This document shows positions 7,627-64,000 of a stretch of 64,000 nt of DNA, piece after piece. The DNA is from Rhizophagus irregularis. Taxonomy: Eukaryota; Glomeromycota; Glomeromycetes; Glomerales; Glomeraceae. A program made the position numbers and the translations under genes. Every line of letters starts with the position of its first letter. Position 1 is the stretch's first letter. The notes beneath the pieces are model-generated. The model was given only the letters and a program-made list of their open reading frames with translations, was not told the origin of the DNA and made no database searches. The DNA is taken from the NCBI RefSeq assembly GCF_026210795.1, contig NC_089434.1, forward strand, positions 2,542,001-2,606,000. Direction: 5' to 3'.

Positions 7627-7794
7627 TTACTAATAACTGTTCTTTTATTTTTTATAAATTTGGGTGGGCTTCCATATTTCAAAGAACGGGAAAATTCCAA
7701 AGATTCATAAGAATCTTGGATTTTTTTTTATTTTTTTAAAAAATATTATGAACGGTTACTAATAACCGTTTTTTTCTATTTTTTAGGATCTGGC

Positions 7795-12910: not shown

Positions 12911-13247
12911 ATTAGTAGTAATTAAATCTGAAAAAGTATAAACATGTTTTTAATATTATTTAAAAAATAAAAAGTAATTTTGCAATAACTAACTTTATTT
13001 ACAGTTAACAACTGGTAATATTCAAAAGCGCGAGACACCAATTGCCAATTACTAGTCTTCCACTACTCAAACTCATCGGTTTTGGGTTGTGTTCATCGGT
13101 TTGACGCGTGTTTTAATATGTTATTTTTTTTTTCAGGGTGCGTTCGCTAAATTGATCACAAAAAAAATTTTTTTTACTATTTGTGATGGTGTAACATTAA
13201 TCAAATTACTATATAAAATTAGGCCCAATCTTGATAGTTAGCCGATA

Positions 13248-13850: not shown

Positions 13851-14284
13851 AAAAAATGAATTTTTTTTTTTTAAAAAAATTTAAAAAAAAAATCTGATCC
13901 GAAATCTGTTCAAATCGGATCAGATTTTCTCGTGTTTGATTTGATCCGATTTGAATCTGATCAGATCAGATTTTTTTTAAATCTCATCTGATCTACAGAT
14001 CAAAATTTTGAAACCTGAACCGATCTGACTCAGATCAAATCTGCAAATCCCAGATCAGAACAGATTTTTTTCAGAACACTATTCGTAAGTACGAATCTTT
14101 ATATATATATATATATATAGTCAACTCTCTTTATAGTCACACATTTGGGACAGTCCATATTTGGTGATTATAAAGAGATGTGACTATATAAAAAATTTCT
14201 TATATTTGTATATCATAATTCCGGCCAAAAATTAACATAATTTTAGCTAGAATTATACTTAAAACTTTATTGTATCGTAACTTC

Positions 14285-15116: not shown

Positions 15117-15164
15117 TTGTTCTCTTTTTCCCCTTCTTTATTACCGATTTATCAGTGTGTAATA

Positions 15165-18100
15165 ATGATGGACAACAAAAAACATAATTTTTCCCCTCAC
15201 CCCTCTCCCCTTATCAAATTTGGTCAATTAAATGTTAATGGTTTATGTTCCCCAGTTCGACAACAACATTTGCTTAATTTTTTTCTTCACTCCTCTTTTG
15301 GTGCTTTATCTATTAATGATATGCGTCTTTCTCCTTCAAATGCTAAATTTATTTTTAAAAATGAACACTCCCAACATCACTTTAAGTCCTATTGGGCTTG
15401 TTCATCTTCTTCTTCTCGCCCTCATGATGGTGTTGGTATTTTGTTACGTAATCCCCTTCATAAACATGTTCAAACAATTGATCCTTGGAACGGTCGACTT
15501 CTTAAATTAGATTTGTTTTTTCATCAAACAAAAATTTCTATTATCTCTATATATTATCCTCCTTCTGGTTCTGTTCATCAATCTATTTGCAATGATCTTA
15601 TTGCCAAACTTCTTTCTTGGCTCGATTATGCCCGAGCTAATAATTATTTTGTAGTTATTCTTGGCGACTTCAATGCTGATGTAATCGCTCATTCTAATTA
15701 TTCACCTAATCATTTTAAGCTTCTTCGCTTGCTTTCTTCTCGGTTTTTTACTGATCATCAAGCTCACTCCTCTACAAATGGTCCTGATCCCACCTTCTTT
15801 TATGATAATGGATCTTCGAGACTGGATTATATCTGGTCTTTACCTGGTTTTCCTGCTCCTGGTCTTTTTTCACAAGTGGTTACTTGCCCGGGTCTCCTTG
15901 ATCGTCCTTTTACCGATCATAAAGTTCTTACAACTGTTTTTGACTTCAGTTCTTGCCTGGCCATCTTGGCTAAATCTCGACTCAAACAGAAAAAAGAAAT
16001 GCGTACTATTTTCTCTTATACTTCCACTTCAACTGAACAATGGAATAATTTTACTGCTGAAGTGGATGATTCTCTTGGTGTTTATTTGGATAGACAATAT
16101 CATCCTAATTTTGATTTCTCCTCTCTTTCTCTTGATCGTATGTGGCATGCATTGAAAGCTGCCATAATTAGTGCTGCAATTGAAACTTTACCCTTTCAAA
16201 AAGTCTCCAATACACACCGACATTCGTACTCTCCTGAATTAACTAAACTTATTGCTATTAACAAGTTTTTAGATCGATTCTTATATCGCCTTACTACTCG
16301 TCATTCTAATCGGTCTACTCAGATTGCGCAAATGACTGCCGCTTTACCCTCCCATCTTGAAAATCTTGCATCCTTACTACCTGATTACTCAGTTCCTACC
16401 TATTCTATAATCCCTGCATCTGTATTTAAATCGTTTTTACGATCACAGAAGAATTTAGTTTCTGCTTTTTTATCTACTAAATTCGCCCAACACCTTACGG
16501 ACTCAGTGGAATATTATACTGCTCTACGTGACGAACACTTTTCGAACTCGCTCAGCACCTTTATAGATTCTGCCTTATCAATAGAAAAACGTTCAATTGT
16601 TCTTGACCGTGTTCTGGTCGTTTTGGACTCATCTCCTACTTTATTAACGGATCCTTCGGATATTAAACATGCAGCTATTTCTCATTTTCAATCAATTGTT
16701 TCTCCTCCGTTGACCCGTTACTCTTCCATCATTTCATTTTCCGCCCGATGGCAACAAGCTTACACTCCTCTTGCTAATGTGTCTGCTTCACTATATGATC
16801 CTGTTTTGGCGCCTATTTCGCTACAAGAATGGTCTACTGCGATTTCCTCCATGCCAAATAACAAAGCTTCCGGCCCTTCAAAAATTTCTTATGAGATGAT
16901 TAAACATCTGTCCGGTGAAGCCTTGGATTTCTCTCTTTTACTGGCCAATACCTGCCTTTCTCGCGGTGATATTCCTGCTGACTGGCGTGAAGCTGTGGTT
17001 TATCCTATTCCTAAACCTCACGAATTTGATGCTCAACTTAAGAACACTCGACCTATTACTCTTCTGGAAACAGTTCGAAAATGTGTAGTTAAGGTCGTCA
17101 CGAATCGTCTCTCCAACATTCTTGCTGATAATAAAGTTCTCCAAGGTGGTAACTTTGCTGGCTTACCTGGTGGTTCTACTGATGTCCCTATCAAAATGCT
17201 TGATGCGATTATCCATCAACATAAACATGACTTTACTGATGATCAGGAACTATGGATCGTTTCTCAAGATATCTCTAAAGCTTTTGATTCTATGGATTTA
17301 AATATGCTTAAATTAGCTTTAGATAGGCTACATATCCCTGCCCTTTTAGTGCGATTTATTTTAAATCTTTTTACACGACGAAATAATAAGATTATTACTT
17401 GTCATGGCGATACAGCTACTTATAGAGTACGTGTTGGTATCGATCAAGGAGAAATCATTTCCCCTCTTCTTTGGGTTATTTATTTGGATCCTTTACTCAC
17501 TGTTTTGAATCAAGAAGCACGAGATCCTTTTATTTTAAAATCTTCAGCTCTTTTAAATTATTCTCCACTTGAATTTGAACAACATTCTTTACCGATTTCA
17601 CATTTAACGTTTATGGATGATTCTACACTTATTGCTTCCTCAAAATCTGGAATAGAAGACCGTCTTTCTATTACTGCTGAATTTTATACTTTAAATAATG
17701 TTCAAGCTAATTCAGCTAAATATGTTCTTCTTTCATCTTCTTCCCCTTCTTCAAAGATTATCTTTGACCTTACACCTTCTTTTTTAGTCTCTGATTTGTC
17801 TCTTTCCCTTTCCTCTTTATCTTTGCATGCTTCCTTTCGCTTTTTAGGCGTTTGGTTTTCTTTATCCGCCTCTTCTGATTTTGTTCTCAAACAAGCGCGC
17901 TCCATGGTTAAAGATATGGCTGCTCTCCTGGGACCGAAGAAATTATTAGCACAACATGTGGCCTATCTCTATAATGCTGTTTTTCTTCCGCGATTGGAAT
18001 TTCGTCTTCAAACTACCTTTTCTCTGAAAGTACTATTCAATCAATTGTCAAGCCTCTGTTTTCAGTACTTCGAAGAAAAGCTGGTCTTGCTACGACTACT

Positions 18101-20552
18101 CCGTTGCCCTTGTTATTTCTCAAACTTCCCTTTTCGATTCAAAATGCTTTCTATCGCTTTCTTTCTTCCCATATTGCATCTTGGCAAAAAATTTTCACTC
18201 ATCCTGATTTTAAAGATTTTGCCCTTTATGCTATCTCCTATCTTCAAGGATATTTGGGTGCTGAAAGTTGCCCGACTACTATTAACTTAGAACCATGGTC
18301 ACAGATCGTTTCTTTGCGAACGCACACTTTGTTTAATTCGCTATTGTTTTCTTCGCATTTGAACATCACGTGGTCTCTTTCCTTCCGGCCTCCGAGGCAT
18401 GATTTACAACCTGCTCTGCCACTCCGATCTATTCTACCTCATTCCATTTTTCAATCGAGTTGGAAACTTTGGAAAAACTTGAATATATTTGTGCTTGCTC
18501 AATTGGTTTCTCCTTGTGGACGTTATCTTATGAATTGGCCTGACCTTCGTTATCTTGGCATCGTTGGTCGTAAAGGACGGATCCCTAATTGGTTTACTTT
18601 TATTAATAATAATTTTCTTTCTTCTTCCTCTTCTACTTTACTTTTATCTTCATATTTTATTAAATCTTCTTTTACTTTAGCTTCTCCTTGTTTATTAGAT
18701 CATACTGTTAAAGATTATTCTTTTTATCCTCAATGGGCTATTAATCTTGACTCTGCTACTCAAACGTTATCTGTTGGTCGTGTGTGTATCACTTATAAGA
18801 AACAAAACTCGGCTATTATGTCTCATTGGCTTCCTGTATCTACCTCGGCTGATGAACGATCCTATGACCCTTGTCCTGGTTGTGCTCTTAACATTCCCGC
18901 CTTATCCATGAAATCTGCCATCAGACAACGCTGTAATAGCGAGAAATGTTTTTTTAATGTAACTCTATCGGATACTGTGGGCTATCCTACCAGAAATGCC
19001 AAAGTTTTCGCGGCTTACCTTCCCATTACTTTATCTACTTCATGGAGTTATGCGACTTCCTTGGCTCTTGTTCACTTTTCAAACGCGTCTCCCGCTCTTT
19101 CTCCTCTCTTTAAGGATAGAATTGATGGAACTGAAGACATTATCTTACCACTTTCTGTGCAATCTTTGTACACAGATGGTTCGTTCCATCCTGCCAATGA
19201 TTCTTCGCCTTCTTCCATGACTTCTGCTTGGATTGCTCTTGATGATGTTGGACTTGTTCTGGAATCTTCTTCCATGCATCTCCCTTCTTACTTTCCTTCC
19301 GCTTTGCGTTCCGAAATTTTTGCTGTTCTATTAGGATTGAACGCCCTTTCCCGTGATTCATCAATCTCTATTCATACTGATTGTAGTCAGTTAATTTCAC
19401 TATGGACACGGTTTGTTGATGCTCCTTTCTCACCGAAGTTGCCCCGAGAACCTAATCATCTTCTTTGGCTTTCTATTCGACAACTTATCATGGATCGTAA
19501 TCTTAATGTTGAATTGATTAAAGTTCCTGCTCATGGCGATGATATCTACAATATACAAGCGGATTCTTTGGCAAAAGATGCTCATTCGTCTTTACAACCC
19601 ACTGCTCTACTTTCAACATTTTGTTATGCTCCATGCTTGTTGACTTTTAACTCCTTGCCTATTGACGTGAATGTTCGACATTTTCTCCGCTCTATTGCAG
19701 ATTCTCGTGCTCTTTTATCTTTTTGTTCACTAGCGCGTTTTACTGCTCTTGGTTCTCCTTCACTTTTTGATTGGGCTGGTATTTATTTTTGCCTTTCACA
19801 AATTAAAGGTTTTGCTTCGCATAAGAATGGTCGTCCTGAATTTTGGATCTTCCGTATCAAACTTCTTTTGGATATGTTACCTACCTTAACTACTCTTCAA
19901 CAACGCAAGCCTTATTTATATTCTCCTGATTGGCTTTGTCCGCAGTGTAATTCTGCTCCTGAAGATTTGAATCATCTTTGGACTTGCCCTTATATTCTTC
20001 CAGAGCTTAATCCATGTTTAACACATCGTTCTGAAGTCATTAAATTTAGAGATTCTTGTTTATCTTCTTTCCTATCCTTGAAATCTTTGGATATTTCTTT
20101 TCAAACCGAATTTTCTGCTTTGGATTGCTGGAACTATGATGCTCCTTCTTCATCCTGTCTTTGGCTTTACTCGAGGATTGTTGCCTGCGCATTTAACGGC
20201 ATTTTTGAATCAACACTTTCCTCTCTCTGTTATATACAAGACTATTTCTCCTCTTCTTAATGACTTCCAAGTCGAATTATATGGTGAAATTTGGCTATGT
20301 CGGAATGTTCTTTTCCATGCTTGGGAAGAGTCGCAGGGTATCTCGGCTGCTTCCAAATTACGTGGCCCATCTATAAATTCTTCTCCTATTGTTTCTTCTC
20401 CACATACAAATAACTCTTCTTTGGCGACAGTTTCTCAGGATTCCTGGATTTCTTGGATATCCTCTTCTATAATTCGGGGTGGATCATGGATCTCGCACTT
20501 GGATTTTCTGCGCCGCTTAACAGTTCAACCTCTTAGGATTTCTTTCTGGTAA
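15165..20552 (+). pseudogene. LINE ORF2 polyprotein, two frameshifts
   Basis: The likely start is ATG at 15165 (MMDNKKHNF); reading frames upstream rely on a TTG. N-terminal AP-like endonuclease (about residues 15-265): FGQLNVNGL, GDFNADV, SRLDYIW and TDHKVL; the usual Glu motif reads INDMRL, so the metal-binding Glu may be lost. Reverse transcriptase: PIPKPHEF, KNTRPITLLE, SQDISKAFDS, GIDQGEIISPLLW, and FMDD at 17610-17621. RNase H: YTDGSF, LRSEIFAV, HTDCSQ, NIQADSLAK. C-terminus: CPQC-X9-H-X4-C knuckle. The frame changes near 18022 and again near 20210 (a CT-rich run), so the element cannot make full ORF2. The RT catalytic residues are intact. Confidence 0.9.
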
Positions 20553-22798: not shown

Positions 22799-23078
22799 AC
22801 CACCATTCGATTTGTCTCAGTGAGACGATTCTAACAAGCTATGATACATCTTTGTACGATTATTAGATGCCAAGTTATTTAATATATTCTTTATATAACT
22901 GTGATTATAAACGGTTCTTTTTAATATAAGATTTTTGAGGATAGGTGTGATAGTGACTATAGATAGATTGTAACTATATAGGATAGATTTTAATAATAAA
23001 GTGTTTTAAACATTCAACTGGTGTGACTATATAGTAGAATGTGACTATAACGGGAGTGACTATAGAGGGAGTTGACTG
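22799..23078. other. Right flank of the pogo-like element
   Basis: Remainder of the fourth 146-bp repeat, then AT-rich sequence with three GTGACTATA motifs that mirror the left subterminal region. No gene. Confidence 0.65.
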
Positions 23079-23084
23079 TATTTT

Positions 23085-23710
23085 TATTATTTTGGAATGG
23101 TTTACTAACCGTTCCTTTCTTTTTTTTATAGGTTTGAGTGGGCTTTTATGTGGAAAAATCAAGATTCGTAAGTACGAATCTTGGTTTATTTTTTTTTAAT
23201 TTTTTTTTTAATATTACGAACAGTTATTAATAACCATTCTTTCTTTTTTTTTAGGATCGGGTGGGCTACTGACCTTTGGGAAAAGAGGAACCAAGATTCG
23301 TAAGTATGAATCTTGGTTTATTTTTTTTGATTTTTTTTTTTAATATTAATGAACAGTTACTAATAACCGTTGTTTCTTTTTTTTAGGCTTCAGGTTGGCT
23401 TCCGATCTTCAGAAAAGTGGAACCAAGATTCGTAAATACGAATCTTGGTTTATTTTTTTTGATTTTTTTTTTAATATTATTATGAACAGTTACTAATAAC
23501 CGTTCTTTTCTTTTCTTTTTAGGTCTTGGGTGTCTCAGATGTCTTCCGAAAAATGAAAAAAACCAAAAATTCATAAGTAAGTACGAATCTTGGTTTTTTT
23601 TCTTATTTTTTTTTAATATTATGAACAGTTACTAACCGTTCTTCTCTTTTTTTTATAGGTTTGGGTGGATTGCTAAAGAACAATCAAAGATTCGTATATA
23701 CGAATACATG
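23085..23710 (+). repeat. Intron-like tandem array of element A, right part
   Basis: About five more units in the same orientation and phase as 6570-8609, with GTAAGT or GTAAAT donors in AAGATTCGTAAGTACGAATC palindromes, GGTTACTAACCG or GTTACTAATAAC branch sites, and TTTTTTAG/G acceptors. Confidence 0.75.
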
Positions 23711-24082
23711 AATTATATAATTGTGGAATTGTATTTGAATTAGCAATATTTTTTGTAAATTAGATAGATGCAATAATAATAATATAATTATAAAGTATTT
23801 AAGCATTAATAAATACATTTATTTAATAAATTGATAAAAAAAATTAAAATAAATTTATAAATAAATGGGTTGTTATTAGACCATAATTCGGCTTAAAGTT
23901 TTAATGTCGAATATTGGTTAATTTAAGTTTGAATAATGGTCGAATAATTTGTCCAAATTTGGAATGATTGGCACTTTAAATGCGCCTAAAAATTCGACTT
24001 CAATTTGACACAGATTAGATCATCATTCGACTTATATTCGACCTGGTCAAATTTAGGTCGAATTGTCTTTTTTCAACTAGTA
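23711..24082. other. 3' terminal region of element A
   Basis: AT-rich, with the same AGATAGATG(C)AATAATAATAAT and TTTAAGCATTTAATAAATAC phrases that close element B (53110-53200), then TTCGACTT-type repeats up to the terminal inverted repeat. Confidence 0.6.
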
Positions 24083-30110: not shown

Positions 30111-31110
30111 AAACGGAACATTAACGTTCTGATAAAAAAAAGAATTAAAAAAAATTTTGAAACGTTAAATAATTTTGATAAAAAAAAGTTATTTCAAAAC
30201 ATTTTTAATGTTTCGATAAAAAAATTAAGAAATCAGAACGTTTACAAACGTTCCAATAATAAAAATTAAAAATAATAATAAAAATAAAATTCAAATCGTT
30301 TATTAATATTTCGATAAAAAAATAAATTTCAAAACGTTACTAAACGTTTCGATATAATATTTATAAAAAAATAAATCAAAACGTTAAATAACGTTTCGAT
30401 AAAAATTTTAAAAAAAATATATTTTAAAACGTAAAATAACATTTTGATAAAAAAATTTTTTAAAAAAAATAAATTTCAAAACATTTTTTAACGTTTCAAT
30501 AAAAAAATTAAGAAATCGGAATGTTAGCAAACGTTCTAATAACGAAATTAAGAAATTGGAATGTTAGCAAACGTTCCGATAAAAAAATAAAAAATTTTGA
30601 AATGTTTTTTAACGTTTCGATAAAAAATTAATATATCAGAATGTTAACAAACGTTCTGATAAAAAAAAGACTAAAAATTTGAAACGTTTTTAACGTTTCG
30701 ATAAAGAAATTAAGAAATCAGAACGTTAGAAAACGTTTTGATAAAAAAATAAAAAATTTCGAAATATTTTTAACATTTCGATAAAGAAATTAATATATCA
30801 GAACGTTAACAAATGTTCCAATAAAAAAGGACTAAAAGTTTGAAACGTTTTTAACATTTCGATAAAGAAATTAAGAAATCGGAATGTTTGCTAACGTTCT
30901 GATAAAAAAAATAGAAAATTTCAAAACATTTTTTAACATTTCAATAAAAAATTAATATATCGAAACGTTAAAAATATTTCGATAAAGAAATTAATATATC
31001 GGAACATTAACAAATGTTCCGATAATAAAAGAACTAAAAATTTGAAATGTAAAAACGTTTCAATAAAAAAATTAAGAAATCAGAACGTTAGCAAATGTTT
31101 CAATAAAAAT
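30110..31110. repeat. Palindromic short-unit array, AACGTTNNCAAACGTT
   Basis: About 18 units of 50-65 bp, each with an inverted pair such as AAACGTTTTTAACGTTTCG or GAACGTTAGCAAACGTTC and an A-rich spacer. It lacks consistent donor and acceptor sequences, so it seems a decayed or simplified version of the neighbouring array. Confidence 0.65.
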
Positions 31111-31645
31111 AAAAAAAGAAACTTTTTAAAAAGATTAAGTTTTGAAATAGTTTAAATAAATGTCTAAATTTAGCTGATCAACTCACATGACTAATCAGCA
31201 GCTCTTTTCAATTTGCGACATAAAAAAGTTTTAGTATTATAAAAGCGGAAATCTGCAAAATCGCAGATTACCGCAGAATTTTTCTAATAAATCTGCAGAA
31301 ACCTGCAAAATTGCAGATTACCGCAGAAATTCATACATAAAAAATTGGAAACTTGCAAAATTGCAAATTGTTGCATAATTTTGTAAAAAATAAAAAGCAG
31401 AAATCTGCAAAATCGCAAATTTCTGCATAAATTCACAAAAAAAATGTGGAGATCTGCTAATTTTACAGATCTCCGCAGTTCTGCATCTTAAAAAATTTCC
31501 TGATGTATCAAACCTTAGGCGAATTGCAAGGGGATTATCTTCTGGCTTAGTGAGATTAAATACAACAAACTCACCTTTTTGAAGGTAACTATTAATAACC
31601 AGCAATGTATTTTTTACATTATTATAACGTCCAGAAATGTTATTG

Positions 31646-35180: not shown

Positions 35181-35312
35181 AAAATAAAAAAAACTGTCGC
35201 TAAGCCTGCAATCACGTGATAAAATTTTAACCAATAAAATTAACTATCCAATAATATTGCTAAATTTCCAACCACGTGTTAATAAACAAATCATTAGGAC
35301 TTTTATCTATGC

Positions 35313-36422
35313 AACAGGGCGGACATGCATTATATCACAATGTCGATCACTTGCCGATCATGATATAAGTGATATCACGTTAAATTTGAAGCTTTATTCT
35401 AAGCAATAAATGTTCTGTTAAATTATTTTATTTAATAGTTTCATTTATCAATAAATTAATATAAAAGTATTGTGGCAAAATAAGGTGTGTTTCCAAAGTT
35501 AGATTTTACATCAAATTTTCAATAATTAATATATATGCTATATATATGCTGATTATCTGCTAACGTGACTTTGAAGCTTTGGGCGAAGCCACAGATCTTC
35601 GGGCGAAACTTGAAACTTTTACAGTATATTATTTAGGTATTCAAGAATCAATGGCTAAAATAAACCTGGATAATTTTTGATAACCCAAAAGTTATCATTA
35701 AATAAATGTTTACAATTATTGTAAAATTAATATATGTCTGATATTTGACAAAATCTTTATGAATTACAGGGCGGACATCCCCATATTATCACGATATTGC
35801 CGATCATTTTGCCGATCACTTGTCCAATATTATCACATAAAAAAATACCGCTGAATTAGTTTTTTCACAAATTCTACATAATAATGTATAAAATTTCGAT
35901 TTTATTTACTTTATTTTATTTATTGTTAATAAATTAGTTCTTAAAATAATTCATAAAGATTTTGTCAAATATCAGACATATATTAATTTTACAATAATTG
36001 TAAACATTTATTTAATGATAACTTTTGGGTTATCAAAAATTATCCAGGTTTATTTTAGCCATTGATTCTTGAATACCTAAATAATATACTGTAAAAGTTT
36101 CAAGTTTCACCGAAGATCTGTGGCTTCGCCCGAAGCTTCAAAGTCACGTTAGCAGATGATCGGCATATATATAGCATATATATTAATTATTGAAAATTTG
36201 ACGTAAAATCTAACTTTGGAAACACACATTATTTTGCCACAATACTTTTATATTAATTTATTGATAAATTAAACTATTAAATAAAATAATTTAACATAAA
36301 TTGTCAGAACATTTATTGCTTGGAATAAAGCTTCAAATTTAACGTGATATCACTTATATCATGATCGGCAAGTGATCGACATTGTGATATAATGCATGTC
36401 CGCCCTGTTGATGTCCGCCCTG
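35313..36422. mobile_element. Foldback MULE-like element, 1.1 kb
   Basis: Two arms of about 450 bp (35315-35768 and 35948-36409) are inverted copies of each other around a 180-bp centre. CAGGGCGGACAT marks the tips, with one extra copy at the right tip (36411-36422) and one at the start of the centre (35769). An 11-bp duplication TTTATCTATGC flanks it (35302-35312 and 36423-36433). Very long inverted arms with a 9-11 bp duplication fit foldback Mutator-like elements. No ORF. Confidence 0.8.
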
Positions 36423-40832: not shown

Positions 40833-42321
40833 TAGAGCTCTGAATTTGACTTGATGGATTGGATGACCTGACGGGTTAACCAGGTCAGGTAGCAGATTTA
40901 ATGACCTGACCTCAAGTCGGGTCAATTACAGTCAGATATCCAACCCGACCCATTGACTTGACATATTTTGGTCATAAATAAGATTTTATATATATAAAAA
41001 ATGCCAACCTGACCTGAATCTGATGTTTTTTCATTAAAAATAATTACAAAAACGTCTTTTTTTATTAAAAATGTCAGGTTCGATTAAAAAACAAAAAAAA
41101 ATGTTTTTTTTATTAAAAAACATTGAACCTGACGTTTTTTATTAAAAGAAACAAAAAAAAATGTTTCTTTAATTAAAAAATGTCAAGTTTGACATTTTTT
41201 TATTAGAAGAAACAAAAAACGTTTCTTTAATTAAAAAACGTCGGGCTTGACATTTTTTCATTAAAAGAAACAAAAAAAATATTTCTTTAATTAAAAAATG
41301 TTAGATTTGACATTCTTTCATTAAAAGAAACAAAAAAAATGTTTCTTTAATTAAAAAACGTCGGGTTTGACATTTTTTCATTAAAAGAAACAAAAAAAAT
41401 GTTTCTTTAATTAAAAAATGTCGAACCTGACATTTTTTTATTAAAAGAAACAAAAAAAAGTTTCTTTAATTAAAAAATGTCGAACCTGACATTTTTTATT
41501 AAAAGAAATAAAAAAAATTGTTTCTTTAATTAAAAAACGACAGGTTTGACATTTTTTTATTAAAAAAAACAAAAAAAATGTTTTTTTTATTAAAAAACAT
41601 CGAACCTGACATTTTTTATTAAAAGAAACAAAAGAAAATGTATTTTTAATTAAAAAATGTTGAACCTGACGTTTTTTATTAAAAGAAACAAAAAAAAATT
41701 GTTTCTTTAATTTAAAAATGTCGGGTTTGACGTTTTTTCATTAAAAGAAATAAAAAAAAAGTTTCTTTAATTTAAAAATGTCAGGTCTGACGTTTTTCAT
41801 TAGAAAAACAAAAAAAATACATTTTGGCGTAATAAAAACTTTACTATCAGTAGTGATTTTTTTGGTAGTATTTTATAATGCTTTTTAAATAATATTAATA
41901 AAAATTTTTGACATATCATGTAAATATCATATTTAATAACATATATATTAATAAGTCTATTATTATTTTTTTACATTTTATTGTAATATGGTATTTTAAT
42001 ATATATTAAATTATAATAGCAATTATATTGTCAATTATTACAAAATATACATTATAGGATTATTATATGGTAATCAAAAAAATAGGCACTGATAGCTAAA
42101 AAGTGCTGAAACGTACTTTTCCATAAAATAATTGTAATATAATTTGATATATTAAAAATGCAGAAATGTTTTTTTGACCCAAAATATACTAGGTCAATGA
42201 GTCAGATCAGGTACCTAAACTGACCTGTAATATTCAGGTCAGGTCACCAAATTCATGACTTGCTTTGGATCAGATCAAGTCAATTAATTATCTAACCTGA
42301 TCTGACCCATTCAGAGCTCTA
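40833..42321. mobile_element. hAT-like element with palindromic array
   Basis: Ends TAGAGCTCTGAAT/ATTCAGAGCTCTA, flanked by GGAACTGC (40825-40832) and AGAACTGC (42322-42329), 7 of 8 positions identical. Excision restores NGGSSYQDIF in the ATPase frame. Subterminal regions contain many GACCTGACC and GGTCAGGTC motifs. The interior is a 60-bp tandem array and an AT-rich spacer. No transposase. Confidence 0.8.
41030..41825. repeat. Tandem palindromic array, about 60-bp unit, 12-13 copies
   Basis: Each unit combines AAAGAAACAAAAAAAATGTTTCTTT with AATGTCGGGTTTGACATT-type inverted repeats (split here into two palindromes). Unlike the other arrays it has no GTAAG donor or TAG/G acceptor, so it is not intron-like. 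Noncoding. Confidence 0.75.
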
Positions 42322-43958: not shown

Positions 43959-46900
43959 CATTGGGAAATTTTTTGGGAAGCAGATCTGCGCAGATTTTCA
44001 GAAATTATATCTGCGCAGATCTTATACCCTGGCGCAAAATATTAAAGGAAAAATCCAATAAAAAACTGCGCAGATTTTATAAATAACAAAGTTCTGCGCA
44101 GATTTTTAAATAAAAAACTTTTGAAATACCTCAGCAATTTTTTTCAGTAAAAATCTGCATCACAATAATACAAATTAATTTATTGCATTAATTACTAATT
44201 TATTTATAATCAAAATTACTTTTTTATTATATATTAACAAGTTTACAAATACAATTGAAATCTATTACTAGTCATTGCTATTTATCATCTCTTTACTGCA
44301 CATTTACATGTTGTTAATAGTTTGGACATTGTTCCAGTTGGTTCGATTCCAACAAACAACAAAATAAAATAGAAAATCGGAGATGTTTATTAGAAATAAG
44401 AAAATTATTTCAAAGTTATTACTTTCGAAATGTTTGACACGAAATCTCAGGATCTAAAAAATAAAGTAAAATGAACGTTAGTAGAACGTTCGTTAAAGAA
44501 GAATAAAAAAAAAATTATAAAGAATTTTGAAGATATACCTTCAAATTCTTTCGTCCAGGAGCCAGAGAAAAAAACCCTACAGAAAAAAACAACTGAAACG
44601 TTAGTAAACGTTTCGCAAATTAAAAAATATGAAAGAATTTCGAAGGAATTTTACCTTCAAAATTCCGTCCAGAAGCCGTAAACCTGCAAAAAGTAAAAAG
44701 AAAAGACAAACAAAAGGTTAGTAAATGTTTTGTTAAACATTAAAAAAAAATTAATTTCGAAGGTAAATACCTTCAAAATCCTGAAAAAATCTCCAAGTCT
44801 AGTTCGTCTAAAGAAGCCCGGCGTTCTTATATAAAGAAGAAAGAACGTTAGAAACGTTCTTTAAAAAAAAAAATAAATTTTAAAGTTTCGCAACTCTTAT
44901 TGCGAAACTTACCATTTACCCGTTTTAGGAACCTTGGAGTACTGAAATCTACAACAAAAAAGAAAACGAAATGTTAGCTAACATTTCGTTTAAATAAAAA
45001 CAAAAAAAACAGAATTTCGAAGGTTACCTTCGAAATTCTGTTCAGGAGCGTCCAGAGAGCTGTGTTCCTACAAAATACAAAAACGAACGTTAGAAAACAC
45101 TTCGTTAAGTATAATTATTAAAAAAAATTTTTTTCAAAGGTTTTACCTTCAATATGGGAGACTGAACTCATTTTCGACTTCCTTTACCTAAAAAAAATAA
45201 AATACGAACGTTAGTTAACGTTTGTTTAAATAAAAAGAAAAAAAAAATTTGAAGGTTTTACCTTCGATATGGGAGCTCAGAATTCATTTTTGGATTCCCT
45301 TGCCTAAAAAAAAAGTAATACGAATGTTAGTTAACGTTTGTCAATAAATTAAATAAAAAAAATTTTTTTTTATGAAGATTTTACCTTTGTATGGGAAAAC
45401 TTTCGTATGGGAGTCCAAGTTTCCGGCTTCCTTTATTTAAAAAAAAAGGAAATATGAACGTTAGTTACGTTTGTCAATAAATTAAATAAAAAAAATTTTT
45501 TTTTACGAAGATTTTACCTTCGTATGGGAAAACTTTCGTATGGGAATCCAAGTTTTCGGCTTCTTTTATCTAAAAAAAAAGGAAATACGAATGTTAGTTA
45601 CGTTTGTCAATAAATAAAAAAGAAAAAAAAATTTTGAAGGTTTTACCTTCGATATGGAAGTCCAGAACTCGTTTTCAGATTCCTTTGCCTAAAAAAAAAG
45701 AGATGAAACGTTAGAAACGTTTTGTCAATAAATTAATTAAAAAAAAATTAATTTTTGAAGGTTTGTTTTACCTTCGATATGGAAGTCCAGAACTTGTTTC
45801 GGCTTCCTTTATCTGAAAAAAAAGAAATGAAACGTTATAAACTGAACGTTTCGTTAATAAATTAATTAAAAGAAATAATTTGAAAGTTTTACCATCAAAC
45901 AGAATTTTCAAATGGGTCCAGAACATACCTTCAGTGTTCTGGACCTATAAAATACAAAAATGAACGAAACTAACGTTCGTTAAAGTTAAATTATAAAAAA
46001 AATATTTCAAAGATTTTTACCTTCGAAATAAATGTCCGGAGCCATTCTTCGGTGTCCAGGACTTATAAATATAAAAACGAACGTTAATTAATGTTCGTTA
46101 AACAAAAATATAAAAAAAAAATTTGAAGGTAAAACCTTTACCTTCAACTAACGTTTGTTAAAGTTAAATTATAAAAAAAATATTTCGAAGATTTTTACCT
46201 TGAAATAAATGTCCGACCATTCTTGGTTGTCAGGACTTATAAATATAAAAACGAACGTTAATTAATGTTCGTTAAACAAAAATATAAAAAAAAAATTTGA
46301 AGGTAAAACCTTTACCTTCAACTAACGTTTGTTAAAGTTAAATTATAAAAAAAAATATTTCGAAAATTTTTACCTTCGAAATAAACGTCTGGAGCCATTC
46401 TTGGCGCCCAGGACCTAAAAATATGAAAAAGCGAATGTTAATTAATGTTCATTGAAATAAAATTAAAAAAATATTTCAAAGGTAAACTTTACCTTTGAAA
46501 TAAACGTTTGGAGCCATTCTTTGGCATCCAGGACCTATAAAACGTAAAAACGAATATTAATTAACGTTCGTTAAATAAAATTAAAAAATATATTTCGAAG
46601 GTTAACTTTACCTTCGAAATAAACGTCCGGAGCCGTTCTTTGGCATCCAGGACCTATAAAATATAAAAACGAACGTAACTAATGTTCATTAAAGCTAAAT
46701 TATAAAAAAAATATTTTGAAGATTTTTACCTTCAAAATAAATGTCCAGAGCCGTTCTTCAATACCCAGAACCTAAAAACATGAAAAATGAACGTTAATTA
46801 ACGTTCGTTGAAATAAAATTAAAAAAATATTTTGAAGGTAAACTTTACCTTCAAAATAAACGTCCGGAGCCGTTCTTTGGCATCCAGGACCTATAAAATG

Positions 46901-47582
46901 TAAAAACGAACGTTAATTAACGTTCATTAAAATAAAATTAAAAAAATATTTCAAATATAAACTTTACCTTCGAAATAAACATCTGGAGTTGTTCTTCAGC
47001 GTCCAGAACCTAAAAACATGAAAAACGAACGTTAATTAACGTTTGTTGAAATAAAATTAAAAAAAAAATATTTCAAAGGTAAACTTTACCTTCGAAATAA
47101 ACGTCTAGAGCCATTCTTTGGCGCCTAGGACCTAAAAACATGAAAAATGAACATTAGCGATATTACGTGTTGTAGAAAAATTATTTTTTAAAGTCTTGTA
47201 AAATTTTTTTTTTTAAAAAGTATTGTAAAAAAAATCATTTAGGTATTAAATCAAGTTAGAGTTAATTAAAGTTTAAATGATGAAATTGCAGATCGAACTG
47301 ATATTTTAATGAAAAAAAAGCAAATATTTGCAAAATTGCAGACTTCCGCATAAATTTCATATAAAAAAAAGCAGAAATCTGCAAAATCACAGACTTTCTG
47401 CAGAAATGCATACATAAAAAATCAGAAACATGCAAAATTGCAGATTATTGCATAACTTTGTAAAAAATAAAAAGTGAAAATCTGCAAAATTGCAGACTTC
47501 CGCATAAATTCACAAAAAAAATGCGGAGATCTGCTAATTTTACAGATCTCTGCAGTTCTGCATCTTAAAAAATTTCCTGATG
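43959..47582. mobile_element. Array-carrying element C2, 2-bp duplication CT
   Basis: Left end CATTGGGAAATTTTTT and inverted right end CATCAGGAAATTTTTT, flanked by CT (43957-43958 and 47583-47584). It lies exactly between the codons for Lys and Thr of the ATPase Walker A motif (SGK/TN). Subterminal AGATCTGCGCAGAT-rich regions and the minus-strand array match element C1. The different 2-bp duplications (TA and CT) argue against a strict TA-specific Tc1 family. Confidence 0.8.
44390..47160 (-). repeat. Intron-like tandem array of element C2
   Basis: About 24 units of 90-130 bp with minus-strand GTAAA donors in TTTCGAAGGTAAAACCTTCG-type palindromes, GAACGTTAATTAACGTTC or GTTAGTTAACGT palindromes, and TTTATAG/G or TTTTTAG/G acceptors. 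Two 120-bp blocks at 46095-46205 and 46215-46330 are near-identical, so part of the array grew by recent duplication. Confidence 0.75.
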
Positions 47583-48959: not shown

Positions 48960-49375
48960 ATTAAATCAATTAAATCGCAAAAATTTCCTATAAAAATAGT
49001 AAAAATTTCCTACGAAAATAATACTAAAATAATACGAAAATAATACTAAAATAATAAAAATTTCCTACGAAAATAATATGAAAATAATACGAAAATAATA
49101 CTAAAATAATAAAAATTTCCTACAAAAATAATATGAAAATAATATGAAAATAATACTAAAATAATAAAAATTTCCTACGAAAATAATATGAAAATAATAC
49201 GAAAATAATACTAAAATAATAAAAATTTCCTACAAAAATAATACTAAAATAATACGAAAATAATAAAAATTTCCTACAACAATAATACAAAAATAATACG
49301 TAAATAATACGTAAATAATATGAAAATAATACGAAATAATACTAAATTAATAAAAATTTCCTATGAAAATAAAAA
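48960..49375. repeat. Simple tandem repeat, AATAATACGAAAATAATACT
   Basis: Seven or so blocks, each starting TAAAAATTTCCTACRAAAAT and followed by two to four AATAATAYGAA repeats. Noncoding. Confidence 0.8.
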
Positions 49376-50727: not shown

Positions 50728-53465
50728 CACTAGTCGAAATAAGGCAAATCAGAAATAAGGCAAATCGTCCTTATTTCGGCTAAATTTCGGCTAATAATTG
50801 ACGATCGTCTGTATATCAGGTGACATTTGGCATAGCCGATTTCCGATTTCACTAGTCAAAAAAGGCCAGCTTATATTCAATTAAAAATTCAACTATGATC
50901 TACGATTAGACATTGGTCGAATAGTCTAATTAAACGTCACATGTTACGCGTATCAAAGTTTAAAAAAGGATCTTTTTTAAACTTTCCCCTTTCATCCCTT
51001 CCTTTCACTTCACTTCGTCCCTATTTTCCCCTGTCCTTTCGTCCTTCCTCTCCCTTCCCCTATTATCCTTTCCTTTCCCTTTCGTCCTTCCTTGCTTCCC
51101 TTTCACTCTCCCCCTTTTCTCACACCTTTCTTCCGCCTCTTTTTCTTGGAAGTAATGTAAGTTTCATTTCGAAACTTACATATTTTTTTTTTAATTTTTT
51201 TTTTTTAATTTAAGAAATGAATTTCTTTATATTGTTTTTTTTTGTAGGATGCCAGCTTTAACACAAAACTGGACTTTAAGGTAAAAAATGGGAAAGTGAA
51301 GTTTTGTTAATTTAAGAAACGAACTAATGTTTCTTTTCATTATTTTTTTTTGTAGGACGCATAGGAGGACGCCGGCTTTAACACAAAACCGGACTTTAAG
51401 GTAAAAAATGGGGAAAGGGGGAAGGGGAAAAGGATTTAAAACCAAGATTCTTAAGAATCTTAGTTTTTATTTTTTTTAATATTTCAGAACGGTTACTAAC
51501 CGTTCCTTTCTTTTTTATAGATTTCGGGCAGGCTTCCTAGTTCCGAAGAATGGAAAAGAACCAAGATTCGTAAGTAAACGAATCTTGGTTTAATTTTTTT
51601 TGTTTTTTTTTGTAATATTAATGAACGGTTACTAATAACCGTTTTTTCTTTATTATTTTAGGTTCGGGTTGACTTCTGAGTTCCGAAGAACAGAAAGAAC
51701 CAAGTTTTGTAAGTACAAGTACGAAACTTGGTTTATTTTTTATTTTATTTTTTTTCCTATTATATGAATGGTTACTAACCGTTCCTTTCTTTTTCTTATA
51801 GGTTCAGCCGTTTGGGTGAGTTTCTGAAGAACGGAAAAAAACTAAGATTATGTACTACGAATCTTGGTTTTTTTCTTCTTTTTTTAATATTTGGAATGGT
51901 TATTACTAACCGTTCTTCTTCTTTTATTTTTTATAGGTTCGGTGTCTCAGGAGGGGCTTCCGAGTTCCGAAGAACAGAAAAAAAACCAAGATTTGTAAGT
52001 ATATATAAATCATGGTTTTAATTTTGTTTTTTTTTAATTTTATTAATGAACGGTTACTAATAACCGTTTTTTCTTTTTTTAGGTTTGCGAGTTCTGAAGA
52101 ATGGAAAAGAACCAAGATTCATAAGTATATACGAATCTTGGTTTTAATTTTTTTGTTTTGTTTAACTTTATTAATGAACGGTTACTAATAACCGTTCTTT
52201 TCTTTTTTTAGGTTCAGGTGGGCTTCCGATCTTTGGAAAAAGTGGAACCAAGATTCGTAAGTAAGTACGAATCTTGGTTTAATTTTTTTTATTATTATTA
52301 TTATGAATGGTTACTAATAACCATTCTTTTCTTTTTTTTAGGATCGGGTGGATTTTTGAATTCTGAAGTACGGAAAAGAACCAAGATTCGTAAGTATATA
52401 CGAATCTTGGTTTAATTTTTTTTATTATTATTATTATGAACGGTTACTAATAACCGTTCTTTTTTAGGATCAGGTGGATTTTTGAATTCTGAAGTACAGA
52501 AAAGAACCAAGATTCGTAAGTATATACGAATCTTGGTTTAATTTATTATTATTATTATTATGAACGGTTACTAATAACCGTTCTTTTCTTTTTTTTAGGA
52601 TCGGGTGGATTTTCAAATTCCGAAGTATGGAAAAGAACCAAGATTCGTAAGTATATACGAATCTTGGTTTTGTTTTTGTTTTTTTTTTATTATTTGGAAC
52701 GGTTTACTAACTGTTCCTTTCTTTTATTTTTTAGGTTTCAGGTTGAATTCCGAAGATCGGAAGAAAAGGAACCAAGATTCGTAAGTAAGTACGAATCTTA
52801 ATTTATTTTTTATTTTTATTTTTTATTATTTTGGAACGGGTACTAACCGTTCCTTTCTTTTATTTTATAGGTTCGGGTGGACTTTCAAGTTCCGGAGAAC
52901 GGAAAAAGATTAAGATTCGTAGGTATATACAAATCTTGGTTAAATTTTTTTTATTAATATTAATGAACGGTTACTAATAACCGTTCTTTTCTTTTTTTTA
53001 TAGATTTGGGTGGATTTCCGACGAATGGATGAACTAAAACCAAGATTCGTAAGTACGAATCATGGTTTATTTTATTATTATTATTTTATTATATTTTTGA
53101 ATTAGAAATATTTATTTGTAATTTAGATAGATGCTAATAATAATAATGTAATTATAAAGTTTTTAAGCATTTAATTAATAAATACATTTAATAAATTTGA
53201 TAATAAAAATTGAAATAAATTCAGAAAAAAATAGTCTGATTTTTGTCCGATTTAAGTTCTGAAGTACATCTGATTGACTGTCCGAATTTAGTATGATTTA
53301 ATTCTGATTTATGTCCGATTTAAGTTCCGAAGTACATCTGATTGGCAGTCAATCGGATAACAATCGGAATATATTTTTTTTGTAAAAATCAGATATATTT
53401 CAGCCGTAATTTGACCTAAAATCGGATATCCGATTTTTAGCCAATTTGCCTTATTTCGACTAGTG
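50728..53465 (+). mobile_element. CACTA-like non-autonomous element B
   Basis: Perfect terminal inverted repeats CACTAGTCGAAATAAGGCAA, flanked by ATT (50725-50727 and 53466-53468). It lies inside a coiled-coil exon of the split gene. Structure: 250-bp left end, pyrimidine-rich leader (50980-51130), intron-like array (51150-53070), AT-rich 3' region similar to that of element A, terminal repeats with ATCGGATATCCGAT palindrome. No transposase. It is the cleanest example of the array-carrying elements in the window. Confidence 0.85.
51150..53070 (+). repeat. Intron-like tandem array of element B
   Basis: About 13 units of 115-140 bp. Example: donor GTAAGT at 52257, TACTAAT near 52307, pyrimidine tract, AG at 52340-52341 (85 nt), then a 48-nt exon-like piece (GGATCGGGTGG onward, ending CCAAGATTC) to the next donor at 52390. 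Three consecutive exon-like pieces are 48 nt; others are 38-46 nt. A few donors are mutated (ATAAGT near 52121). The first units near 51240-51400 have GCCGGCTTTAACACAAAACC exon-like pieces of another sequence. Confidence 0.85.
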
Positions 53466-59107: not shown

Positions 59108-59157
59108 TTTTCTTCTTCAAATTTTAACTCCCCGACTGTTTTTATCATCGTGTTTTA

Positions 59158-62100
59158 ATGTCAGACAATAATTTTAATTATGATACCTTTGTACGAAACC
59201 CTCCCAACCCCGATAATGTTACTGAAATTTTTTCACATGAATCCTTATTTTCTTCTTCTAGTAACACTTCTCCTATCCCTAACTCATTTAATATTTCCTC
59301 CTTCAATGTTAATGGCCTTAAAATGTATGGTCAGACTAAATTAGAAGAAATTTCTTCTTTTTTCTCCTTAAAACATATTTCCTTTGGTGGTATCGTTGAT
59401 ACTCATCTCCACCCTAAACAAATGAAGTTTTTATCCAAATGTCTTTCTAATTATACTGTGTTTTCCTCGAATTTGGATACTTCTAAACAAATTCTTTCTT
59501 CTTGGTGTTTCCTTTTTATAGAAAATTCTCGCTTCATACGTACAAGATTTTAAATTCCATTCTTCACGACTGCTTTCTGTTGATTTATATTTCAAAGGCA
59601 ATGTTAAATTGCGTATATTTGTTATTTATATCCCTCCCCCTGCTGAAAGTATTTTGCGCACTGATACTATTGATTTGCTTATTCAACAACTTATCCTTTC
59701 TAAACAAGCTGGTTTTTATCATGCTGTTTGTGGCGATTTTAATATGCATTTAGATAAATATTATCCTATTTATTTTAATCAACCCCAAATTGCTTCAAAA
59801 CATATACATCGACTACTTTTTCATCTCCTTTCTCATGGTTATAAAGATTTTACACCTATTAATCTTTCTGACTCTTTAGGTACCTTTCATCGCAATGACC
59901 ACGTTACTCGTGTTGATTATGTATGGTCCTGCCCTCTTCTCAAAGGATTTGCTCTTACTGCTTGTATTTTTAATGCTCAAGACATCTGCACATCTGATCA
60001 TAACCCTGTCATCACATATTATGATATGTCTTTACTTTTTGCCTCTACCAAATTGGCTCGCGCTCGTCAACTTAAGCGCCAAACCCGTCGCGTCTTCAAA
60101 TTTGATTCTGTAACTGATACTCAATGGACGGAATTCGCTGACAAAGCTGATGCTTTATGTGATGTTTCACCTTCAACCTTTTCCTCCTGGCATATCAACC
60201 AAATGTGCGAATATCTTCAATCACGAATCCTCAAAGCTGCCAACGCTACTTTACCTTCTTCTATTGTTGGCAACAATTACACTCCTAAGGTCCCTAAAGA
60301 TCTCGAAATTTTAACTCAACATTATTGGTTTTTAAATCGCCTAATGCATTCGATACGTTTATTGCGCAAATATCCTTTAACTTATTCTGTTGTTCATGAA
60401 CATAAGTGGTCTATACATTTGCATAGACTTCAAAACATTCTTCAATTATACAAAAAAGTCTTTACTTTCATTCCTACTTTGCCCTCTTCTCTCTCATCAT
60501 GTCGACAAGACAATTTCAAGTCACTTCTTGATGATTTCTCCCATATTTCAAAATGCTTACGGGATTTCATTTACTTCAAGAAAAAGAATTCCAAGACTCC
60601 TCCATCCGTGCTCACTTGGACGATAGGAATAATAATTTTGAAACTGACCTTTCCTCCTTTATTGATTCAGCGCTTTCTCGCACCCGTCGCCGTATCACTT
60701 TGGACCGTGTCTTCATCGATCATCCTACTCAACCTCAGTTGCTAACTGATCCTAAGGACATAGATGATGCTGTTGTTAACCATTTCCAAAATTTTGTACC
60801 TATAAAGTCCACTCTTCCTGTATCTATTGATACACTACCTGATAGATGGTCTTCTGCCTATCAACCTATGGATGATGTGTCCTCCTCCATCTATGATTCT
60901 TTAATGAATCCCCCTACCCTTGATGAATGGTTATCCACCGTTTCTTCTACTCCTAACGGTAAAGCCTCTGGTCCTTCCATGATTACCTATGAAATGCTCA
61001 AACATCTCGGATCTCGTACCTCGGCTTTACTCCTCATTTTAATTCAAGCATGCCTTTCCAAAGCTGATATTCCTGACTTATGGTGACAAGCAATGGTTTT
61101 TCCCATCCCCAAACCTCACGAATGGAAGTGTCAATTAAAAAATACTCGCCCTATTACCCTACTTGAAGTGATTAGGAAATCTCTTGTCAAACTTTTTTAT
61201 AATCGCCTTTCTACCATTATGGCTTCACATGATGTCCCTAAAGGTGGTAACTTCGCTGGTCTTCCTGGAGGTTCTTGTTCTTTGCGAACCCTATTATTAC
61301 TTTAGAATCTATTATCCATGATGCTGATATCAACAAAAACCCACTTTGGATTCTTTTCCAAGATATTTCTAAAGCTTTTGATTCAGTTGATCTAACGATG
61401 TTACGTTTCGCTTTAGAACGTATACGTCTTCCAGCCTCCGCTGTTAAGTTTATCCTTTCCCTTTTATGAAACGCACTAATCGCGTTTTCACCTGCTCATG
61501 GATCTACGCCTGCCTATAGGGTTCGCATTGGTATTGACCAAGGCGAAGTTATTTCTCCTCTTTTATGGGTCATTTATATTGATCCCTTACTTACTATTCT
61601 GAAGAATGAGATGATGGACCCTTATGTTCTTTCTACACCGTCTTTAATTGATTCTTCAAGCTGCTCTTGATTTGAAGATTAATAATTTAGTATTTATGGA
61701 TGACTCTACTCTTATTTCCTCGTCAAAAGCTGGCATGGAATTTATGTTATCCATTACTGAAGAATTTTATCAGATCAATAACACTTCTGCCAATCATAAC
61801 AAATATGTGTTAATCACTAATTCGTTGCCTTTGACTCCGAATTCCACTTTATCCCCTATCACTTTTAATTTGGATTTATCCTCTTTAAATAGTGTTCCTT
61901 CCATTACTATTACCCCAATTTCCATGACAACTTCTTTTCGTTTTTTAGGTGTTTGGTTTAACATTAAGAGCTCCCATGATTTTGTCAAGAAGCAACTCAA
62001 ACGTGAATGCTGCTCCTTTGCTGCGACCATCCGACCCGCAAAGCTCTCTTCTAAACAAGTCGTGTATTTATATAATGCTGTTCTTGTACCAAAACTTGAA

Positions 62101-64000
62101 TATCGGATGCAAGTTACCCACTTGTCTGAATCTGAATGCCACCTAATAACGAGAAGTATACGATCCGTTGTAAAGCACAAAGCGAACTTTTCTCGTTTTT
62201 TACCCAACCCCATTCTATTTTTGTCCCAAGCTTTGGGCTTGATTAATTTGTTCGCTCATCAACGACAATGTCATATTACTAATTTATTTTTAATGGCTAA
62301 TTCTTCTTCTTCTTTTATTCAATCTCTTTTTATTTACAGATTGTGTTTAATTCAATATAATTTTTTGATTCCTATTTCTCCTTTATTAATTAAGGACTGG
62401 TCTATATGGTCTTCTTTATTTTCTTTTAAGAAAGATTATATCGCATGCACTATTGCTCTTCTAACTTCTACTCCCTTTCGTTTGCTTCATACTCAACTTT
62501 TGAAGCTTCCAAATTTATCCCTACCAGATGGATGCGTTCCTTTATTCGAATGCACGACGCCTAAAGCCTTTAAAGCTTATTTCCCCATTTTGCGAAACGA
62601 CAACTGTTTTATTTATCTCAACTTGTTACTCCTCAAGGAACTCATTTAATTTCTTGGAAGGCTTATTATGACAATTTGGTTGGACGACGTGGCCCTGGCC
62701 GTATCCCTTATTGGTACAAAGATATTCAACAAGTTACCACTATTTCTGACTCCAACAATCGTCTGCTGGATCATTTCACTATTACGCCCAAGATTGTCTC
62801 TTCATCTTATGAATTGGCTCCCTGTTCATCCTCTCCTTCTACTACAAAAATTGGATTGTCACGTTGGACGATTATGGTTCTCCCATCTTTGGCAAACAAC
62901 TCTTGGTCCAAACAAGTCGTGTACTTGTTCTATTGTTCACTGGATTTCTCCTGATTGCGAATCTTCGCCTGGCGATCTCATTAGACTCTCTCCTTGCCCT
63001 GGTTGCGCTGCTTCATACTCCTTTGCCTCCTTCCAAAAAACGGAATGCTGATTTAACCCTTTGTACGCCTACGGTCTCTCTACAACATTCGCTTATTTTG
63101 CCCACTACTAATGAACGAATTAGACGTACTACTTCTGAAGTGGCTTCACCTTTTACTTGGGCTGATATAGAAGATGGTGTCCGTCTTTATTATAGTAGAT
63201 TGGATTTTGATTCCGATTCTTCTTCTGCAGATACCGTTATAGTCTCTAATACTCCGCTCACAATTGAATCCTCGGCTGCTGCTGTCTTTGCAAATTCCCC
63301 GTTGGTCGTTTCCTCGATTCGTGCTATACCTTTTTCTTTTACGCTGATGGGTCTCTTATTAATTTAGGCACTCCCGATGTCTCTATGGGCTGGTCTTGGA
63401 TGCAAATAGTCCCTGATGCAGGTTTTCCTAACTCCATCGCCACTTATGCTCATGGCCTTATACGAGATAATCTCTCTTCTTCTCGAGCTGAGGCTGCTGC
63501 TATATATGCAGTTTTAACTATTTCTCCACGCGACTCAGAAGTTACTATTTATACTGACTCACAAACTGCCATTGATGGCCTTCGAAGTTGTTCTTCTTTT
63601 GTCTACTCAAACAGTCGTCTGTACTACAAAACTACAAATTTTGAGCTTTGGGCGATTATTGAGCGAACCATCCTTTCCAAAAATCTGACAGTTTTTCCTG
63701 TTAAAGTTAAAGCTCACTCCGGCAATTATTTAAACGATTTTGCTGATTCCTTGGCCAATACTGCCCATACCGCGTCATCTAGTATTCTGATCTCCGGAAT
63801 GGACCTGGCCTCTGCTCATGATTTTGTCTTAGTGTATGATAACGATGTTGTTTGTGAATCTAATCCGCGACACCTTCTCAAACTATATTATCAAACGCAG
63901 TTAATGCGTGATTTGTTAAATTTAACGCGTTTTCACTTCACTTCTTTATTGACATCTAATATAGATTATATTATTGACTGGAAATTACTTGGTTTACTTT
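59158..64000 (+). pseudogene. LINE ORF2 polyprotein, multiple frameshifts and stops, 3' end outside window
   Basis: Endonuclease: SSFNVNGL, GGIVDTHLHP, CGDFNMHLDK, TRVDYVWSC, SDHNPVIT. Frame breaks near 59530 and 60560. Stop TGA at 61084 (CGA expected, DLW-stop-QAMVF). Reverse transcriptase: PIPKPHEWKCQ, KNTRPITLLE, FQDISKAFDS, GIDQGEVISPLLW, LVFMDDSTLI (FMDD at 61693-61704); breaks near 61275, 61470 and 61655. Thumb and linker region in frame 61648-62649, then shifts near 62600, 62880 and 63340. RNase H from 63340: FYADGSLINLG, SSRAEAAAIYAV, IYTDSQTAIDG, FADSLANTAH. Catalytic residues are still readable, but the element cannot make ORF2. Confidence 0.9.

Follow-up and report, generated by a model that had tools for sequence, protein, structure and literature searches.

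We describe a transposon whose cargo reads as a chain of mini-introns. The analysis concerns a window of 64,000 nucleotides from Rhizophagus irregularis, a mycorrhizal symbiont of the phylum Glomeromycota (contig NC_089434.1, positions 2,542,001 to 2,606,000; coordinates below count from the first base of this window), and centres on one element in it, here called B (50728-53465). B is a non-autonomous CACTA-type transposon, and its plan is shared by three families of elements with terminal inverted repeats (TIRs), most weakly by the family that we call C, which is broader than a first, sequence-only reading of this DNA had stated. That reading had proposed a non-autonomous transposon with a chain of mini-introns, and the proposal is borne out by the TIRs, the target site duplications, a partner element with a tnp2 transposase, introns that point in one direction, and the conservation of donor and branch site across copies. 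With moderate confidence we interpret the interior of these non-autonomous DNA transposons as a non-coding cassette that is spliced in the manner of RNA polymerase II transcripts. The ingredients are of known kinds (non-autonomous TIR transposons and spliceosomal introns); their combination, with an intron array as cargo, appears to be new.

The ends of B are exact 22-bp TIRs that start with CACTA: CACTAGTCGAAATAAGGCAAAT is found at both ends, on the plus strand at 50728-50749 and as its perfect inverse, on the minus strand, at 53444-53465. The left repeat is flanked by ATT and the same three bases directly follow the right one, giving a 3-bp target duplication. Across the 146.7-Mb R. irregularis genome (32 contigs), to which all genome-wide searches refer, the B TIR has 99 matches at up to two mismatches, whereas its reversed sequence, used as a control, has none, and a DNA search for B returned at least 138 matches, with 40 of 502 candidate places scored. 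Both TIR ends are present in 15 of the 20 array loci that were fetched. Counting the window copy, identical 3-bp flanks are seen in 12 of 16 two-ended array copies and differing flanks in 4.

Twelve further loci with a B TIR pair are larger (6.6-7.1 kb), and 7 of the 12 have identical 3-bp flanks. These partner-size CACTA elements (L039-L050) contain subterminal repeats, which they have in common with the tail of B (element positions ~2505-2738). L039, the one partner scanned for domains, has an 810-amino-acid frame with a predicted tnp2 transposase domain (Transposase_21, PF02992, 9e-13); frames are also present on its opposite strand. Presumably B is moved by the transposase of these relatives with the same ends. 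At E 1e-5 the 12 partner-size elements align to B only at its two ends (~118 bases on the left, ~234 on the right), and the array sequence has no match in them, which argues that the array is cargo and not the remnant of a transposase gene. A role as a transposase-binding array was rejected as well, given 12 partner-size elements that lack it. B thus has in common with the non-autonomous elements of the CACTA (CMC-EnSpm) superfamily the CACTA ends, the 3-bp duplications and a tnp2 partner sharing the TIR, but inside these ends it holds mini-introns chained in one direction and no deletion derivative of the partner.

On the plus strand, the interior opens with a C/T-rich leader that looks promoter-like by eye (50985-51140, putative), followed by three candidate leader introns (51157-51247, 51281-51355 and 51401-51520; overall 51157-51520). 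The latter are called from sequence alone, since the gene model OCT59_026297 starts at 51550; the branch site of the second lies inside a different palindrome (AGAAAC-GAACTAAT-GTTTCT). The array of exon-like pieces and mini-introns follows at 51521-53048, as delimited by the intron scorer, the copy alignment, the fold analysis and the gene model, and an AT-rich tail in which AATAAA words were noted by eye completes the element (53049-53443). The array introns lie on the plus strand at 51570-51661, 51709-51801, 51995-52082, 52121-52211 (with a broken donor in this copy), 52257-52341, 52390-52467, 52516-52598, 52647-52734, 52781-52870 and 52919-53003; one unit has lost its donor at 51851, and a final donor stands at 53049. 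A looser rule yields 12 introns of 75-120 nt (3 in the leader, 9 in the array) plus 2 donor-less units, a count that cannot itself show enrichment because the rule picks introns by their own signals. The exon-like pieces of the array measure 38-58 nt.

The worked example of the sequence-only reading is exact to the base: a GTAAGT donor at 52257 opens an intron-like stretch of 85 nt that closes with TTTTTTTTAG at 52341, an exon-like piece of 48 nt covers 52342-52389, and the following GTAAGT stands at 52390. Its statement that every unit is a complete intron holds for most units and fails for two: the unit at 51851 lacks a GTRRGT donor in each of the 15 copies that could be read there, and near 52121 the window copy has ATAAGT as its donor. 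To the signals as a whole we applied a generic fungal-intron scorer (donor, branch, acceptor), which was designed after the arrays had been read. Between 51100 and 53200 its count is 10 introns for the sense strand, none for the antisense strand and 1 for the reversed sequence, against a mean of 0.4 (maximum 2) in 30 dinucleotide shuffles, in agreement with the order and spacing of splice signals noted earlier. We are fairly confident that the introns of B, as judged from these letters, are really spliced in the fungus. The earlier suggestion that the array is a way of leaving host transcripts does not agree with the layout: about 430 bp lie 5' of the first donor and about 460 bp 3' of the last acceptor, and all exon-like pieces would be retained.

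Copies elsewhere in the genome show which positions are held constant. We aligned 16 copies, namely the window copy and 15 of the 20 fetched loci (5 were excluded for less than 82% identity or less than 1 kb). Transversions affect 10 of 1645 cells at donor and branch sites against 313 of 15084 in exon bodies and linkers (p 2.5e-6), and not one of the 493 T cells in donor hexamer and branch has changed. Counted by site, 3 of 104 signal positions bear a transversion, compared with 111 of 1006 control positions (p 0.003) and 27 of 308 positions in the palindrome arms (p 0.03), while the donor hexamer (1/60 sites) is better kept than the remainder of its own loop (8/60, p 0.016). GTRRGT is retained in 144 of 160 readable donors (11 units) and YAG in 167 of 171 readable acceptors. 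Polymorphic sites are most frequent in exon bodies (185/397), followed by linkers (140/609) and signals (18/104).

The intron plan recurs in two further CACTA-like elements, in a hAT-like TIR element with an 8-bp duplication and in a third TIR family with weaker donors. Besides the 10 introns in B, the strict scorer reports 8 in element A, 4 in an array near 23 kb, 3, 6 and 4 in the D arrays and 6 in L073, a cleaner B-type array elsewhere in the genome (antisense 0, shuffle mean at most 0.4); in the B-type and D arrays the ordered series of donor, branch, pyrimidine tract and AG is accordingly above chance. Element A (6145-8609, plus strand) has a CACTA-like left end (CACTAATCAAAAAAGG), a C/T-rich leader and the B-type unit, and is interrupted by a D element at 8610. 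The third B-type array (23050-24082, plus strand; units at ~23.1-23.7 kb) closes at 24081 with CAACTAGT, a CACTA-like right end; here, as in A, one such end was found. In L073 several branch-like palindromes in succession (180-360), of the type seen in family C, precede the first acceptor, a hint that arrays may have been exchanged between families.

Family D is represented by three minus-strand arrays built of another unit. D1 (3976-4762) has short TIRs (TAGTGCTCC...GGAGCACTA) and TGTATAAT on each side; from this 8-bp duplication, seen in one copy only, and the short TIRs, the family appears to be hAT-like. D2 (8610-9570) is a second copy nested in A, of which one end was not found and which looks truncated by eye; D3 (13240-13860) is a D-type array. 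The orientation of the D array relative to its own TIR is uniform in 17 of 18 cases. This count starts from the 34 D TIRs that lie on contigs C1-C11, out of 85 in the list, and from 100 listed palindrome places, the first of 274; for 18 of these TIRs at least one listed D palindrome lies inward at a distance of no more than 3 kb. The third family comprises C (43959-47582) and C2 (27758-31505), both on the minus strand and in the same orientation. Its ends read CATCAGG (right end of C from outside: CATCAGGAAATTTTTTAAGATGC), its donors in C read AAG|GTAAA within TTTCGAAG|GTAAAGTTTACCTTCGAAA, and the 2-bp flanking repeats TA and CT make a 2-bp target duplication possible. Genome-wide, at up to two mismatches, there are 1,140 occurrences of the B branch palindrome, 274 of that of D and 117 of that of C (self-palindromes of the latter being counted on both strands); the reversed controls all gave 0.

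Donor and branch site had been described as each sitting in its own palindrome, and folding confirms this. Over 61 introns from nine arrays, the mean z-score is -4.2 for the donor window (50/61 below -1.5) and -3.1 for the branch window (47/61), against -0.06 for the acceptor window (1/59) and -0.34 for the linker (13/61). The arm sequences differ between families. In B-type donors the arms form 7.00 of 8 pairs with their own partner compared with 6.24 after shuffling (0 of 2000 shuffles reach this value), and P is 0.003 for the B-type branch; arm covariation is not significant in C and D, neither for donors (P 0.07 and 0.96) nor for branch sites (P 0.35 and 0.59). As a host control, four tubulin introns placed by eye have donor z-scores of -0.3 to 0.5 and no hairpin, which with n=4 is a hint at most. 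Hairpins are also seen in exons of D (8 exons, with means between -2.5 and -3.0) and of C (11 exons, mean -1.6), and were not seen in those of A, B, the 23-kb array, L073 and C2.

It might be argued that the palindromes are the functional part, as sites for dimeric proteins or as replication hairpins, and that the splice-like words are incidental. The window does hold palindrome arrays with no GTRAG on either strand (41083-41818, 30193-31120 and 47312-47534); the first two consist of tandem palindromes spaced by A/T tracts and served as intron-free controls, and between 41000 and 41900 the strict scorer finds 0 introns on either strand. Since such arrays exist, palindromes appear to be a wider habit of the repeat arrays in this window, with the introns as an extra layer. 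The conservation of the arms, given below, also speaks for this explanation. Nevertheless, donor, branch and acceptor are ordered in one direction only in the B-type and D arrays, despite differing arms and units (C is less strict), the donor is better preserved than the other positions of the loop around it, and the absence of the array from the 12 partner-size elements makes it dispensable as a transposase site. We consider this explanation rather improbable.

A second alternative accepts the splicing and denies it any benefit: unequal exchange or slippage would have multiplied a single intron-exon unit, with the resulting arrays hitch-hiking on transposition. The copies do differ by roughly whole-unit steps (gap runs of at least 60 columns are mostly 128, 141-142, 149-164 or ~311 columns long, with one of 693), they contain 6 to 17 sense profile matches each, partial ones included, and other tandem arrays, free of introns, are present in the window as well. 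What this alternative leaves unexplained is that donor and branch are better conserved than exon, linker and loop, and that three TIR families built of different units follow the same plan. We rate it as possible, though on balance unlikely; passive growth of a once-useful unit explains nearly as much as the spliced cassette that we favour, except for the constraint on donor and branch.

A protein-coding origin needs to be considered too, because gene models exist. A 92-amino-acid translation from a stretch of the concatenated B exons matched ten predicted proteins, all from R. irregularis, and with a C-type query one R. irregularis model was found to cross C junctions. OCT59_026297 aligns to B without a mismatch across 11 GT-AG introns, along one exact path; it shares 10 acceptors and 5 donors with the list above, and four other donors lie 4 bases downstream. 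The mapping is compatible with splicing. According to a passage in PMC10234402, the R. irregularis annotation drew on RNA-seq and Nanopore reads. Several orphan models resemble spliced arrays, namely OCT59_026297 on B itself and RIR_jg13247.t1, RirG_181500 and others by similarity.

That these models reflect a true gene with many repeated small exons is very improbable. No single conserved frame of the kind expected for a protein-coding repeat gene was found in B and D, owing to stops and frame switching: the exon lengths in B are not all multiples of three, and the existing models change reading frame from exon to exon. C is less clear. Compared with dinucleotide shuffles, B-type exons contain slightly fewer stops (8 against 9.4 in B; 9 against 11.4, 3 against 4.5 and 0 against 1.7 in the others), none significantly, and D exons about as many (7 against 8.0, 19 against 21.3 and 13 against 13.0). 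In C, stops are scarce (20, with 29.2 in the shuffles; P 0.005) and a length of 42 nt is found in several exons, so that a coding past is possible in this family. Dinucleotide make-up explains the scarcity of stops relative to mononucleotide shuffles (figures below) in B, and not wholly in C. Pfam gave no match up to E 0.1 in the gene-model proteins P0001, P0003 and P0006, and one sub-threshold match in P0011. A coding origin was rejected for B and D on the basis of stops and frame switching, and the rejection is weaker for C. The idea that the repeated small exons themselves matter fares no better, given that exon bodies are the most variable part and that the stops in B are close to the shuffled number. 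These orphan multi-exon models of R. irregularis are probably transposon arrays, and as genes spurious.

A number of observations weigh against a spliced, non-coding cassette. With mononucleotide shuffles as reference, stops are clearly fewer in B (8 against 21.2), L073 (0 against 10.4) and C (20 against 37.4); the D2 exons have 19 against 21.5. Some splice sites of OCT59_026297 look frame-driven (for instance the intron 52348-52494), so that the gene model is no proof of splicing. Genome searches with the junction pattern and with the joined exon chain found no processed copy: the pattern gave 11 matches, all at 3 mismatches, against 5 in the control, and the two that were inspected are unrelated; the chain gave 227 matches, of which those listed each span about one exon (40 of 99 candidate places scored). 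The donor G is not clearly protected (G-to-A in 24 of 335 cells), and the fifth donor base has changed in 14 of 175 cells against 7-9% at other non-CpG G. Acceptor columns show no depletion of transversions (5/348), so that the earlier expectation of substitutions sparing all three signals stands for donor and branch and not for the acceptor. The palindrome arms are conserved as well (transversions 70/6444 against 313/15084, p 1e-7), and part of the constraint may therefore be on the hairpins. Moreover, the copies share ancestry, which makes the cells non-independent and the cell counts optimistic. In the predicted folds of A, B and C the donor GT is mostly paired, which could hinder U1: in B it lies mostly in the stem (0.08-0.09 unpaired) and not free in the loop, and the D arrays alone leave it free (0.7-0.99 unpaired). 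Finally, the strict scorer fails in the third family, with 2 introns in C (the best shuffle also has 2) and 0 in C2 (29500-31200), because the donors there read AAG|GTAAA and similar; the looser rule finds 4 introns in C2.

As for the way in which a spliced cassette would work, the layout suggests a C/T-rich leader, a series of short introns of the spliceosomal type, of which three belong to the leader and about eleven to array units, and an AT-rich tail. Transcription would start from the leader, and the transcript would then undergo many splicing events. Studies of other organisms report that introns guard transcripts against silencing and that stalled introns invite it. For R. irregularis, PMC8647823 reports that young transposon loci yield 24-nt small RNAs. 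Taken together, an efficient chain of introns could keep the element outside the 24-nt small-RNA pathway and in open chromatin. We tentatively put forward as the leading benefit that splicing shields transcript and locus from silencing and leaves the element accessible to the transposase. The arrays gain and lose whole units, and the palindromes may be either cause or by-product of such change. More speculatively, and with less expectation of being right, we propose a convergent class of non-autonomous DNA transposons with splicing as cargo: hairpin-dressed mini-introns would have arisen in, or been exchanged among, at least three TIR families, and repeated splicing would mark the transcript as 'self' and hold off the 24-nt small-RNA pathway, while the donor and branch hairpins could act as a latch on splicing that, when closed, feeds intron detention and small RNAs.

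An introner is an intron that is itself the mobile unit and is found at many host-gene sites. The arrays might accordingly descend from an introner lineage: larger transposons would have taken up an intron-making DNA element, which then expanded in tandem inside them. Repeated intron-like units tied to TIR DNA transposons are the point of likeness. TIRs or target duplications are common among introner families (PMC9860276), and hairpin-bearing intron units, with inverted repeats at introns, are described for Amoebophrya (PMC7789003). The differences are considerable: an introner is itself an intron of a host gene, whereas here tandem introns with their own exon-like pieces lie inside one transposon, and the arms in Amoebophrya join both intron ends, whereas here separate hairpins local to donor and branch are combined with canonical signals (PMC7789003). 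The mobile unit that we observe is the whole TIR element. The case is weak either way, and we think such a descent quite improbable.

Other comparisons are more distant. The stwintrons of the Hypoxylaceae are likewise sequence-similar fungal introns with internal symmetry, but they are nested, and the title and abstract opening of PMC8469720 mention neither transposon ends nor a tandem chain. Annotated CMC-EnSpm families of R. irregularis belong to the same superfamily and fungus and are reported as expressed (PMC8647823 and PMC11075540); the word 'intron' has 0 occurrences in the main texts of these two papers. Searches of the open PMC literature, judged by titles and abstract openings (subscription papers lie outside this scope), brought up no description of intron arrays in transposons.

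If the arrays are spliced, there are transposons with introns by the dozen and no protein to interrupt. Shielding by introns against silencing would then be directly testable, copy by copy, by comparing array elements with array-free elements that have the same ends, for which poly(A)+, small-RNA and methylation data of R. irregularis already exist, and the near-identical introns that vary at donor, branch or hairpin form a natural series. For the gene catalogues of R. irregularis, the consequence is that orphan multi-exon 'genes' are probably these arrays (by exact mapping for OCT59_026297 and by similarity for the others).

The remainder of the window is rich in other repeats. A large foldback occupies 35312-36410, with arms at 35413-35602/36110-36299 (96%), 35602-35766/35947-36111 (99%) and 35312-35430/36292-36410 (96%). 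Long open frames at 15117-20552 and 59128-63367 look by eye like the endonuclease and reverse transcriptase of long interspersed nuclear elements (putative). Further tandem arrays are found at 3197-3821 (period 185, 3.4 copies) and at 49011-49352 (period 11, 31 copies).

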